Shown here piece by piece: positions 41,955 to 45,818 of a stretch of DNA of 64,000 nucleotides (the first letter of the stretch is position 1; each line of letters opens with the position of its first letter). Where the stretch lies: assembly GCA_030431525.1 (NCBI GenBank), contig JAUIJC010000007.1, forward strand, positions 1-64,000, in the 5' to 3' direction. A program made the position numbers and the translations under genes. The notes under the pieces were generated by a model. That model was not told where the DNA came from. It was given only the letters and a program-made list of their open reading frames with translations, and did no database searches. The stretch is from Bacteroidia bacterium (GTDB lineage: Bacteria; Bacteroidota; Bacteroidia; Cytophagales; JAAEPT01).

Positions 41955-42363
41955 GGATTTTCCTTTGAGCAGGGCATAACTGTTCCATGCTTCAAAAATT
42001 GAAGGAAGGGATTGCCCTGAAATGAAGGATAGTAGTTGACGCACGAATCCCAGCCTGTATACCCTATCCGTTGGCATCAGGGAAAAGTCGTATGGGATTA
42101 TGCATCAAGATTACATGACCGTAGAGGTAAAAGGGTTGTTCTTTGTAAAACGTACGCAAGTTAAAGAAAGCTCTGGTTTTTAAGAAAGGTGTTTAAACAC
42201 CTATGCTTTAGGGATGAGGTAAAATGTCCGTGGTTTTGTGCGTTTTTAGCCTTTAAACGGCTGTTTTTGAGAGAAATCCGCGTTCAAAAAAGTCCGTGAT
42301 TGTCCAAAAATGGTATTTCGTAAAAAGGGTCAATACGGCAATTTGCTCAGGATTGATTACGGC
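41955..42363. other. 409-nt divergent spacer upstream of the RNA-repair operon
   Basis: The spacer lies between two divergently transcribed genes. It holds a 16-nt perfect palindrome (42187-42202) and a second, imperfect TTTAAA-centred palindrome AGCCTTTAAACGGCT (around 42249-42263). No consensus Bacteroidota promoter was found on either strand. The first 123 nt are open in the ligase frame but not ligase-like. Confidence 0.5.
42187..42202. promoter_or_regulatory. 16-bp perfect palindrome, possible operator
   Basis: AGGTGTTTAAACACCT, its own reverse complement, 233 nt before the RNA ligase start and 162 nt before the PorV-like start. A related TTTAAA-centred palindrome follows 47 nt on. It could bind a dimeric regulator of either gene; function is a guess. 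Confidence 0.4.
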
Positions 42364-43200
42364 ATGTATCACGGTTATTTTTTAAGCTTGAATATTATTC
42401 AATCGTGTTGCATGTTTTTTATGTGTGCCTGCTTGACACTTGCTCCCCAGTTCGGCTTTGCTGACATTTTTCGGGGAGCGAGAGGTCAGGGCCTTGCAAC
42501 CGCTACCGTTTCCCAACAGGGTTTTACCTCCGTGCTTGACAATCAGGTCGGATTGGTTGGTTTAGACCATTTTGCTGTCGGCTTTCAGTCGGCTGTGCAT
42601 TATGGCAACTTTTCGTCCCATGCGTTGACGATGGCTTCTCCTTTGGGGAAAGGCGTCTTGGGTTATTCCACCACTTTGTTTGGCTTTGATGGTTATCGTG
42701 AAAATCAGAATAGTTTATGCTACGTGCGGTCATTGGGAAAGGACTTTGATGTCTCCCTCCAATTGAGTCATGTTGGGCTTTCTCTGGGGGAATATGGGCG
42801 AAAAGATGTGTTGAGTTTTGCTCTTGGTTTTCAGACCAAGCTATCGAAGAAAGTGCGTTTGGGTGGGCATTTGGCGAATCCTATAAGGCCTAAGGTGGCC
42901 GAATCAGAGTTTGCTGTGGATTACTTGGCTTCTTGGCTAAGGCTTGGAGCCAGCTACCAAGAGGGGAAATGTTTGTTGTTGGCAGAGGTTGAACAACATT
43001 TCTCTGGAGTGACTCTGTTAAAAGCAGGTTTGGAATATCAGCCAATAAAGGATGTGTTTTTAAGAACTGGTGTGTCCACAAACGGAGTGTTGGCTTTGGG
43101 GTTGGGAGTGGAGCGGAAGAAACTGGCAGTTGATTTTTCTGTGGACTGGCATCAGGTTTTGGGGCTGAGTCCGGCAGTGGGAGTGGGGTGGAGGCTATAA
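42364..43200 (+). CDS. PorV/PorQ-like outer-membrane barrel protein
   Basis: A 278-residue exported protein. The signal peptide is hydrophobic around MFFMCACLTLAPQFGFA. The mature part starts DIFRGARGQGLATATVSQQGF and continues with strands typical of small FadL-fold barrels of the PorV/PorQ type. Those proteins act in type IX secretion or surface attachment. The Met at 42364 gives the best signal peptide; a Met at 42412 is possible. A 38-nt repeat begins 1 nt after its stop, and the HhH-barrel gene lies just beyond the inserted element. Confidence 0.6.
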   Translation: MYHGYFLSLNIIQSCCMFFMCACLTLAPQFGFADIFRGARGQGLATATVSQQGFTSVLDNQVGLVGLDHFAVGFQSAVHYGNFSSHALTMASPLGKGVLGYSTTLFGFDGYRENQNSLCYVRSLGKDFDVSLQLSHVGLSLGEYGRKDVLSFALGFQTKLSKKVRLGGHLANPIRPKVAESEFAVDYLASWLRLGASYQEGKCLLLAEVEQHFSGVTLLKAGLEYQPIKDVFLRTGVSTNGVLALGLGVERKKLAVDFSVDWHQVLGLSPAVGVGWRL

Positions 43201-43201
43201 T

Positions 43202-43239
43202 CAACCCCACCTCTGTCCTCCCCTTTCTAAGGGGAGGAG
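43202..43239 (+). repeat. GC-rich repeat, copy 1 (left end of the DUF559 element)
   Basis: A 38-nt unit: CAACCCCACCTCTGTC then CTCCCCTTTCTAAGGGGAGGAG-type hairpin. It matches the reverse complement of copy 3 (43736-43773) at 34 of 38 positions. It starts 1 nt after the PorV-like stop. Confidence 0.85.
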
Positions 43240-43271
43240 AATGTTACAGATAACAGTGGGCTGATGGTTTT

Positions 43272-43308
43272 CCCTCCCCTTGGTAAGGGGAGGGTTAGGG
43301 TGGGGTTG
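43272..43308 (-). repeat. GC-rich repeat, copy 2 (inverted)
   Basis: The plus strand reads CCCTCCCCTTGGTAAGGGG then AGGGTTAGGGTGGGGTTG. Reverse-complemented it is a diverged relative of copy 1 (shared CAACCCCACC and CTCCCCTT-hairpin parts). Confidence 0.75.
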
Positions 43309-43347
43309 ACCCCCGTAGATTTTTATCCACAGTAGCTTTATTTTTTT

Positions 43348-43716
43348 ATGAGCCACCATCGCATTTTTAATCGAAAGGATATGGAAGAAAAGCGCAAGCT
43401 TTTACGCTTGAACCCAACAAAGGCAGAATCTAAGCTTTGGGATAGGCTGAGCAATAAACAGTTGGAAGGACGAAAGTTTCGAAGGCAGGTTTCTGTTGAG
43501 TTCTACGTTTTGGATTTCTACTGTCCATCCGAAAAGCTGTGTATTGAGTTGGATGGGGAAACCCACCTTTCAGATGAGGCTTTGATTTATGATGAAGAGC
43601 GCACCGCATTTTTGAACTCTTGTGGTATTCGGGTTATTCGCTTCTGGAATGAAGAAGTGTTCGAAAACATCGAAGGGGTTTTGGATCGGATTAAAGCCTG
43701 TTTCAGTGAGCAATGA
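43348..43716 (+). CDS. DUF559 endonuclease-domain protein
   Basis: A 122-residue Vsr-like nuclease of the PD-(D/E)xK superfamily. LRLNPTKAESKLWDRLSNKQLEGRKFRRQ is the family start. The catalytic core is VLDFYCPSEKLCIELDG, with Asp56 and Glu67-Leu-Asp69, and the final strand is GIRVIRFWNEEVF. Stand-alone DUF559 genes are common in Bacteroidota and have no settled role. This one lies inside GC-rich inverted repeats (43202-43239 and 43736-43773), as though it travels with them. Confidence 0.85.
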   Translation: MSHHRIFNRKDMEEKRKLLRLNPTKAESKLWDRLSNKQLEGRKFRRQVSVEFYVLDFYCPSEKLCIELDGETHLSDEALIYDEERTAFLNSCGIRVIRFWNEEVFENIEGVLDRIKACFSEQ

Positions 43717-43735
43717 TTGAGTAATCAGCAACAAT

Positions 43736-43773
43736 CTTCTTCCCTTAGAAAGGGGAGTACAGAGGAGGGGTTG
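43736..43773 (-). repeat. GC-rich repeat, copy 3 (right end of the DUF559 element)
   Basis: The plus strand reads CTTCTTCCCTTAGAAAGGGG then AGTACAGAGGAGGGGTTG. It is an inverted copy of 43202-43239 (34/38). It ends 11 nt before the HhH-barrel start. Confidence 0.85.
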
Positions 43774-43784
43774 ACCCCATTTTA

Positions 43785-45818
43785 ATGCATCCCACTACTC
43801 AAAATATCCCCCATTTTTTCAAGCTCCTTCTACGGTTGGGACTATGCTTGTTCCTATTCTCCACAGCCAGTTTTTCTTGGGGTCAAACCGATATTCCCCA
43901 ACAATTGGAATCCATTGAAGAAGAAAATGTAGAAACCATTCAATGGGCGGAGGCTTTAGATTATTATCAATCCCATCCGTTAGATCTCAACCGCGCTGAA
44001 CAAGAGGAGTTTTTAGCTCTTGGATTGCTTTCTGAACGGGAAATCAACCTGCTTCTTGAGCACCGAAAAACCTATGGCTTTTTTGTGGAAGAGGATGAGT
44101 TGTTAGTGTTCTTCTCGCCGGAGAAGGTTGCGGTGTTGAAGCCATTTATCTGCGTTCGGCCAATTGGTGTGGGGCTGGAGGCGTATCCACTTTCCTTGGC
44201 AACCTTTCAAAAGGGACAACATCATGTCATGTTACGAACAGAGCGCAATTTGGAGCCTCAGCAGGGATTTCTTGAACCCGATTCCACGTCCAAAGCATTT
44301 GTTGGAAGTCCTTTTAAAACCTATTTGCGCTATAGCTATCAATTGGCCAACCGTTTGGGTTTTGGATTCACCATGGAAAAGGATGCCGGTGAAAGAGGTG
44401 TGGATTATCTGTCCGGCCATGTGCATTGGCGTCCAAGAGGCATTGTTCAGGATGTAATGCTTGGAGATTATGGCTTGAATCTGGGGCAAGGCTTGGTGGC
44501 TTGGACGGGTTTTCGAATGGGCAAGTCGCCATGGGCTATGAATGTGGATTCCAAAGGGATCCCAGTATATGCCTATCGTTCGGCAGAGGAAAACAGATTT
44601 TTTAGGGGAGGGGCGCTTCGCCTAAAACATCGGGGTTGGGAAATGTTGGCTTGGGTCTCTCACAAAAAAAGGGATGCTACGGTGGTTGGGGATAGTGTTT
44701 TAGCGGTGTCCAGTTTTCGAACCTCTGGATTGCATCGCACCCAAAGTGAGTTGGCTGGCAAGGACGCGCTTCAGGAAACCGTTTGGGGCGGTCGATTAGC
44801 CAAAGAGTTTCATCGTTTTCGGTTGGGAACTCAGGTTTTGCAAAGCCGATTGGATAAAGCTTTGGAGCGAAGCGAACAACCCTATAATCACTTCCTTTTT
44901 GAAGGAAAAGTACTGACGAATGGAAGTGTGGATTATCGCTGGATTGGTAGGAAATGGGAAGCTTTTGGTGAATTTGGTTATTCGTCCAATGGTGGAACGG
45001 CTGTGTTGAACGGCCTTAAGTTTTATTCCGATTCCCGCATTTCTTTTAACCTGTTGGGACGCTCGATTTCTCCAGATTATACCAGCTTTTATGGACGGGC
45101 TTTTACAGAGCGTTCCTCCCCAAACAATGAACAAGGGCTTTACCTTGGCATGACTTGGCAACCAAAGCCATTTTGGGAATTCAATTTTTATGTGGACCAC
45201 TATCAACACTTGTGGTTGAAGTCGGATGCCAAGGCGCCTTCGGATGGGCGAGAGTATTTTGGGCAACTCAGCTATTGTCCCCGCGAGCAGTTGAGTATGT
45301 ATTGGCGGGTGAAATGGGAGGAGAAATCGCTGAGTGATAGCGATGCTGATGGGCCTGTAGTGGGTTTAGTGGATGAGCGGTTGTTGCGTCTCCGCTATCA
45401 TTTGCAGTATCAGGTCTCCAGATATGTGAGTTTAAATACCCGATTGGCTTATTCAAATGTCAGAAGGGAGGAGGAAAATCAGCAGGGTTTTTTGCTGTAT
45501 CAGGATATCCGATGGCAGGTGCCCCGCTTTCCTTTGAAGTTTACAACGCGGGTCGCCTATTTTGATACCGAGAGCTATCAGACGGGCTTTTATTCCTATG
45601 AACATGATGTTCAATATGCTTTTTCGGTGCCTGTTTATTATCAGCAAGGCATGCGGTTTTATTTGGTGGCTCGCTATAAGCCGAAGCCTTGGTTTGTTCT
45701 ATGGTTGAAGTACGCCCGAACGGCTTATGCTGGGGTCGAAAGTATGGGTTCAGGAACGGATGAAATTCAGGGGGCTAAACGAACCAATGTTAAGGCTCAA
45801 TTAGAAATCTTGTTTTGA
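43785..45818 (+). CDS. helix-hairpin-helix domain fused to an outer-membrane barrel
   Basis: A 677-residue exported protein. A signal peptide (FKLLLRLGLCLFLFSTASFSWG) is followed by a ComEA-like helix-hairpin-helix region at about 66-110 (HPLDLNRAEQEEFLALGLLSEREINLLLEHRKTYGFFVEEDELLVF). The remaining ~550 residues are rich in aromatic/Gly beta strands ending NVKAQLEILF, a barrel-like C-terminus. ComEA HhH domains bind double-stranded DNA. Here the domain would lie in the periplasm next to a barrel, so DNA handling is possible but unproven. Confidence 0.7.
   Translation: MHPTTQNIPHFFKLLLRLGLCLFLFSTASFSWGQTDIPQQLESIEEENVETIQWAEALDYYQSHPLDLNRAEQEEFLALGLLSEREINLLLEHRKTYGFFVEEDELLVFFSPEKVAVLKPFICVRPIGVGLEAYPLSLATFQKGQHHVMLRTERNLEPQQGFLEPDSTSKAFVGSPFKTYLRYSYQLANRLGFGFTMEKDAGERGVDYLSGHVHWRPRGIVQDVMLGDYGLNLGQGLVAWTGFRMGKSPWAMNVDSKGIPVYAYRSAEENRFFRGGALRLKHRGWEMLAWVSHKKRDATVVGDSVLAVSSFRTSGLHRTQSELAGKDALQETVWGGRLAKEFHRFRLGTQVLQSRLDKALERSEQPYNHFLFEGKVLTNGSVDYRWIGRKWEAFGEFGYSSNGGTAVLNGLKFYSDSRISFNLLGRSISPDYTSFYGRAFTERSSPNNEQGLYLGMTWQPKPFWEFNFYVDHYQHLWLKSDAKAPSDGREYFGQLSYCPREQLSMYWRVKWEEKSLSDSDADGPVVGLVDERLLRLRYHLQYQVSRYVSLNTRLAYSNVRREEENQQGFLLYQDIRWQVPRFPLKFTTRVAYFDTESYQTGFYSYEHDVQYAFSVPVYYQQGMRFYLVARYKPKPWFVLWLKYARTAYAGVESMGSGTDEIQGAKRTNVKAQLEILF

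Follow-up and report, generated by a model that had tools for sequence, protein, structure and literature searches.

A DUF559 nuclease gene and its associated family of REPIN-like palindromic repeats in Bacteroidota and other bacterial phyla

REP palindromes bearing a GTAG tag have been described together with RAYTs, whereas REPs of the CGTC type apparently come without a transposase (PMC3733652). Here we analyse a stretch of 64,000 nt (the window) from the genome of a Bacteroidia bacterium, in which the only DUF559 gene of that genome lies between inverted hairpins. DUF559 is a protein domain listed as being of unknown function. In Caulobacter, the DUF559 protein VsrA is required for a DNA damage response in vivo in cells lacking a methyltransferase, and its authors propose a role in mismatch repair, reading the response as due to accidental double-strand breaks (PMC12907096). 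A literature search, conducted mostly outside subscription papers and preprints, returned nothing linking DUF559 to palindromic repeats.

The gene-bearing unit and its insertion site

The unit and the two genes beside it comprise the following features, given by position in the window; L and R denote the two distinct ends of the repeat unit.

42310 to 43200, plus strand: upstream gene of the interrupted conserved pair ("PorV-like" in the first-pass annotation); no Pfam or NCBIfam match
43201 to 43774, plus strand: whole gene-bearing unit, with outer inverted ends, both L-type, and DUF559 between them; recognized from a 54-nt inverted repeat (85%) and the empty site in relatives
43201 to 43254, plus strand: left outer end, an L-type REP; tail TCAACCCCACCTCTGT, hairpin CCTCCCCTT-TCT-AAGGGGAGG at 43217–43237, subterminal GAATGTTACAG
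43201 to 43309, plus strand: unit of the gene-less type, complete but shortened (109 nt, the genome norm being 133–135 nt)
43272 to 43309, minus strand: inverted R-type REP; hairpin at 43273–43293, tail TTAGGGTGGGGTTGA; forms a short REPIN-like unit with the left end
43348 to 43716, plus strand: DUF559 (PF04480) nuclease gene, 122 aa, with a predicted EDxHD/Vsr-like fold (from the ORF, Pfam, conserved residues and a structure model)
43721 to 43774, minus strand: right outer end, an inverted L-type REP; loop variant TTTCTAA, as in the left end
43785 to 45818, plus strand: downstream gene of the interrupted conserved pair ("HhH-barrel" in the first-pass annotation); homologue in 87 of 98 relatives

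The first-pass annotation had reported 38-nt inverted repeats at 43202–43239 (copy 1) and 43736–43773 (copy 3). Comparison of copy 1 with the reverse complement of copy 3 reproduces its 34/38 identities, and the repeat is real but longer than described, with 43201–43254 and 43721–43774 being 85% complementary over 54 nt. The third, diverged copy that had been listed likewise exists, in inverse orientation to copy 1 (37 nt, 81%), but is actually the second end of a double-hairpin, REPIN-like unit. The palindrome CCTCCCCTTNNNAAGGGGAGG, with up to three mismatches allowed, occurs three times in the 64,000-nt window, always at the DUF559 unit, where 0.04 occurrences are expected. The order within the unit is an L-R unit of 109 nt, then DUF559, then a single inverted L end; rather than occupying the plain spacer of one REPIN, the gene has an L end on one side and, on the other, an R end that turns its outer side towards it. 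The two outer ends share the loop variant TTTCTAA, a hint that they pair as the termini of the gene-bearing unit. As had been claimed, DUF559 is the sole gene between the ends (ORF 43348–43716; PF04480, E=7e-34), the stop codon of the upstream gene ends at 43200, and the downstream gene begins with an ATG at 43785.

The two neighbours, neither of which has a naming match in Pfam or NCBIfam, form a conserved pair and are adjacent or nearly overlapping in most relatives examined, including one of the same family. The empty sites that the first-pass annotation proposed to seek thus exist, and its view that the unit interrupts a gene pair holds: since the flanking genes directly adjoin in relatives, the DUF559 unit is a real insertion into an old gene pair.

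A Vsr/EDxHD nuclease fold is predicted for the DUF559 protein. Its structure model (pLDDT 92.9) matches the Neisseria protein NGO0050 (3hrl) and also the catalytic domain of the homing endonuclease I-Bth0305I (3r3p; TM 0.62/0.76), and among the conserved residues E27, D56, E67, D69, H73 and D82, two (E67 and H73) are invariant and three (D56, D69 and D82) nearly so; the predicted fold and the conserved residues are thus of the EDxHD/Vsr-like kind seen in EDxHD homing endonucleases. Pfam recognizes PF04480 alone, plus PF18741 below the cut-off. The HUH motif and catalytic tyrosine of a Y1 transposase (PF01797) were not found in this protein, whose fold matches REase-like nucleases. The region 43348–43713 of the window also gives a weak NCBIfam match (E=0.006) to positions 139–209 of blaGMB, a metallo-beta-lactamase exception model, which could be due to chance or to a DUF559-like insert in that model.

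Repeat copies with and without the gene

The L-type end of the DUF559 unit recurs in around 40 other copies in its own genome, where the left 141 bases of the unit give 91 BLAST matches, and where exact palindromes number 65, compared with zero for a reversed pattern control. These further copies, the orphans that had been suggested as something to look for, lack DUF559 and, examined one by one, are two-hairpin units with two distinct ends. Twenty-six are intact pairs of 122–135 nt, in every one of which an R-type end is paired with an L-type end and none of which lies within a long open frame; scattered and mostly located between genes, they have the structure of REPINs, namely two inverted REPs around a short spacer. 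The first description of a stand-alone two-ended element must accordingly be given up, the locus being one gene-bearing copy among some 40 gene-less REPIN-like units. That the repeats are widespread at sites without DUF559, which the same annotation had counted against its proposal, refutes only the simple compact-transposon reading, because REP/RAYT logic predicts exactly that.

Target-site duplications, also proposed for inspection, were not found at the unit copies: a duplication of 4 nt or more is seen in one of 25 units at the best offset, compared with around 0.1 in shuffled pairing, and the units therefore lack this mark of insertion sequences and MITEs. By eye, GTAG is not conserved at stem or unit edges among 25 own-genome copies, and the own-genome units do not show the combination of CGTC tag, 8–9 bp stem and CCA tail described in PMC3733652. 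Many of them (e.g. L009, L015 and L021) are embedded in larger composite flanks that also contain AATGCTGTTGCATTAAG inverted repeats and GGGGCAGACCTGTGTGTCTGCCCC palindromes, which may represent a further repeat family.

DUF559 is present in 38 of 98 genomes of the order, its flanks often having inverted C-rich palindromes, and is common in the phylum (129 of 296 sampled genomes). In a multi-phylum set, flanking inverted repeats with a score of at least 15 were found at 80 of 133 DUF559 loci, compared with one of 117 control windows located 500–900 nt away at the same loci; many Clostridia loci share one common repeat, so the 133 loci are not independent, and the DUF559 loci of the order alone display the same excess. 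The 53 of 133 loci without a flanking inverted repeat at this threshold leave room for other functions among DUF559 proteins, such as the mismatch repair proposed for VsrA. Palindromes of relatives were counted using a degenerate pattern with a reversed control, the own-genome pattern being too specific. Across the 296 genomes of the phylum, at least five palindromes occur in 38 of the 129 genomes with DUF559 and in 10 of the 167 without it (p=6e-8), a co-occurrence that is modest under within-family permutation (p=0.014). Two of these ten genomes have at least 15 palindromes; gene loss, assembly gaps or another mobiliser are suggested as explanations for genomes of this kind.

All five DUF559 genes of a relative (G030) lie inside an inverted repeat pair, with the gene in place of the spacer. 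Several of these repeat families recur as gene-less inverted pairs approximately 100–120 nt apart, and for two of the five genes (L034 and L081) other repeat copies are few or diverged. At locus L297, arms of around 100 nt on both sides of DUF559 are nearly identical. The pairing of the gene with its own repeat recurs in at least six bacterial phyla, with examples in Clostridia (AAAGCCTCCCTTGTGTAAAGGGAG), Nitrospirota, Prevotella, Sphingomonas, Deinococcus, Azospirillum, Photobacterium and the cyanobacterium Picosynechococcus. Repeats from Sphingomonas, Thermodesulfovibrio, Prevotella and Clostridia genomes gave 75, 11, 62 and 22 matches, respectively, and in a cross-genome search with these four repeats all of the approximately 150 matches listed were in the repeat's home genome. 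These loci thus resemble the RAYT/REPtron arrangement in having a gene bordered by palindromes of which the same genome has many copies. In one genus, moreover, repeat types I (nine genes) and II (five genes), whose hairpins are oriented oppositely, correspond to two DUF559 clades (100/100 support; none of 500 shuffles as good), and this coupling cannot be explained by species relatedness, because both types occur together in two species (G030 and G073).

There is therefore good computational support for a pairing between DUF559 and its own repeat family. The gene-less copies, the 80/133 loci, the home-genome repeats and the clade coupling bear out, far beyond the 43201–43774 locus, the earlier suggestion of a RAYT/REP-like logic with a different enzyme, and the recurrent pairing points to a widespread, apparently undescribed kind of mobile DNA.

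At the flanks of L059, L089 and L105, the hairpin on the DUF559 side is interrupted by a second small palindrome (e.g. GTTCAGCCGCAATGCTGAAC or TTGCGCATCAAGCAA), and the inner end of L077, L080 and L038 (type I, one genus) carries GTCGTCAGG, which resembles the CGTC tag. DUF559 matches 40 plasmid records, some of them chromosome-sized, and only two phage records, both unannotated. A role in anti-phage defence was considered and set aside, the PADLOC matches being weak.

Insertion sites and a proposed mechanism for the spread of the repeats

In relatives the DUF559 gene occurs as an in-frame insert within the genes for leucyl-tRNA synthetase, another class I tRNA synthetase, methionine synthase, HsdR, HsdM, a UvrD-like helicase and an Eco57I-type methylase, at loci that include the following.

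L037, L039, L040, L046, L047, L083, L147 and L150: leucyl-tRNA synthetase with in-frame DUF559 and flanking repeats
L088, L154, L153, L165, L081 and L060: further essential or large multidomain host proteins with in-frame DUF559 and repeats

No intein domain was detected in nine scanned host ORFs carrying DUF559, and the gene in the window is intergenic and palindrome-bounded. At two places in leucyl-tRNA synthetase, species are either empty, or have an in-frame repeat without the gene, or have repeat-DUF559-repeat. Among sister species, one intergenic site lacks the unit and another is occupied by different repeat families; DUF559 loci with the same neighbours recur between species, and the right flank of unit L186 of G030 is not conserved in the sister species. 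In-frame insertions in essential tRNA synthetases show how deeply such DNA can penetrate coding sequence. At the orthologues of the L188 site in G073, G013 and G086 (L303, L305 and L309), inverted pairs of GTCATCCTGAGC type (CGTC-like) replace the C-rich unit.

We consider it probable that DUF559 acts as the cognate nuclease of its own REPIN-like repeat family, which it would spread and maintain in the manner of REPIN/RAYT systems, though as an unrelated enzyme; the binding, the nicking and the copying step are what we infer. The repeat unit would be an inverted hairpin pair with a C-rich stem and a CACCCC-type tail, around 134 nt long without the gene, and the gene-bearing copy would carry DUF559 between such hairpin ends. 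DUF559 would recognize the hairpin of its own family when single-stranded or extruded and would nick at the hairpin edge; starting from this nick, host replication or repair would copy the two hairpins as a unit to a new site, leaving no target-site duplication. Like RAYT genes, the gene-bearing copy would mostly descend vertically, whereas the gene-less copies would be the ones to multiply. Nucleases with this fold hydrolyse DNA and, to our knowledge, have no strand-transfer activity, so that host factors must be assumed. A broader possibility, which in our judgement falls a little short of evenly balanced, is that DUF559 represents a separate class of mobiliser, in which a stand-alone Vsr/EDxHD hydrolytic nuclease and host repair spread their own double-hairpin repeats across many phyla, and that it may be the missing partner of palindrome families reported without a transposase.

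An unlikely alternative is that the REPINs are spread by something else, and that DUF559 is a nuclease of the homing type, whose gene enters REPIN sites by gene conversion after the enzyme has cut them. The predicted EDxHD homing endonuclease fold, the gene-bearing and gene-less units at the same leucyl-tRNA synthetase sites, and the gene loci, in which DUF559 takes the spacer position of the same inverted pair, would all fit a homing parasite. Such a parasite would leave unexplained how gene-less units arrive at new sites, however, and each DUF559 clade has its own repeat type, DUF559 is present in the genome of each tested repeat family, and a non-exhaustive search found no other enzyme beside the repeats.

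We regard as quite improbable a host-useful role in repair or regulation, with DUF559 as a Vsr-like repair nuclease, the hairpins as terminators, mRNA stabilisers or binding sites, and neither of them mobile. Against it stand the empty sites, the intergenic site at which sister species carry different repeat families, and the in-frame insertions in leucyl- and other class I tRNA synthetases, methionine synthase, HsdR, HsdM and UvrD-like helicase, although the mismatch repair reading of VsrA (PMC12907096), the position of the own-genome gene-less units outside long open frames and the recurrence of gene loci with the same neighbours between species are in its favour.

Very improbable, too, is that a RAYT (Y1/HUH transposase) or another transposase spreads the repeats with DUF559 as a passenger. 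The REPIN layout is typical of RAYT systems, and the window's genome and G030 have three Y1_Tnp matches each, but the C-rich repeat is within 1.5 kb of none of these six loci, there is no conserved GTAG tag, and a passenger would not show clade-for-clade pairing with a repeat type. Furthermore, the three strongest Y1_Tnp loci adjoin different palindromes (CGCCGCTACGCGGC, GCCCTGAAAGGGC and CGTAGGGCACAAGGC).

G000:C39:9195, G000:C19:81230 and G030:C1:2702408 (L326–L328): RAYT-like Y1_Tnp genes accompanied by different palindromes of their own

C-rich palindromes are common in bacteria, but that GC-rich terminators merely happen to cluster beside a small gene is scarcely credible and already refuted by the 80/133 versus 1/117 loci, the nearly identical arms of L297 and the confinement of all listed repeat matches to home genomes.

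If DUF559 does spread palindromes, a class of repeats in Bacteroidota, Clostridia, Alphaproteobacteria, Cyanobacteria, Deinococcus and Nitrospirota would gain an explanation. REP-like DNA would then have two unrelated enzymes behind it, and a test would open for what moves palindromes without a RAYT.

Comparison with known systems

Insertion sequences with MITEs also have one coding copy and many short non-coding ones with similar ends, but the DUF559 units have neither a DDE or HUH transposase nor target-site duplications, and they end in hairpins rather than plain terminal repeats. The EDxHD/Vsr-like homing endonuclease I-Bth0305I has a similar catalytic-domain fold (3r3p), whereas the DUF559 gene is palindrome-bounded, is accompanied by many gene-less copies and has no intein domain in nine hosts. 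Caulobacter VsrA shares the Pfam domain and a link to DNA damage in vivo, but differs in its proposed role in mismatch repair. CGTC REPs and the Rickettsia palindromic elements, reported without a dedicated transposase (PMC3733652), are similar in forming inverted dimers with in-frame intragenic copies, and some type I units in one relative genus have CGTC at the inner end; the own-genome units, in contrast, have no CGTC tag and no CCA tail. A link of DUF559 to the CGTC families is offered as an idea only.

The DUF559 system is not a RAYT system, because its enzyme is unrelated: a DUF559/EDxHD-type nuclease stands in place of the HUH Y1 transposase of RAYTs, and the repeats have C-rich stems and CACCCC tails rather than a conserved GTAG tag. 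In other respects it resembles REPIN/RAYT (REPtron) systems, with inverted palindrome pairs, many gene-less copies, genome-specific families, intragenic insertions, and one or few nuclease genes per genome that are flanked by the same repeats.
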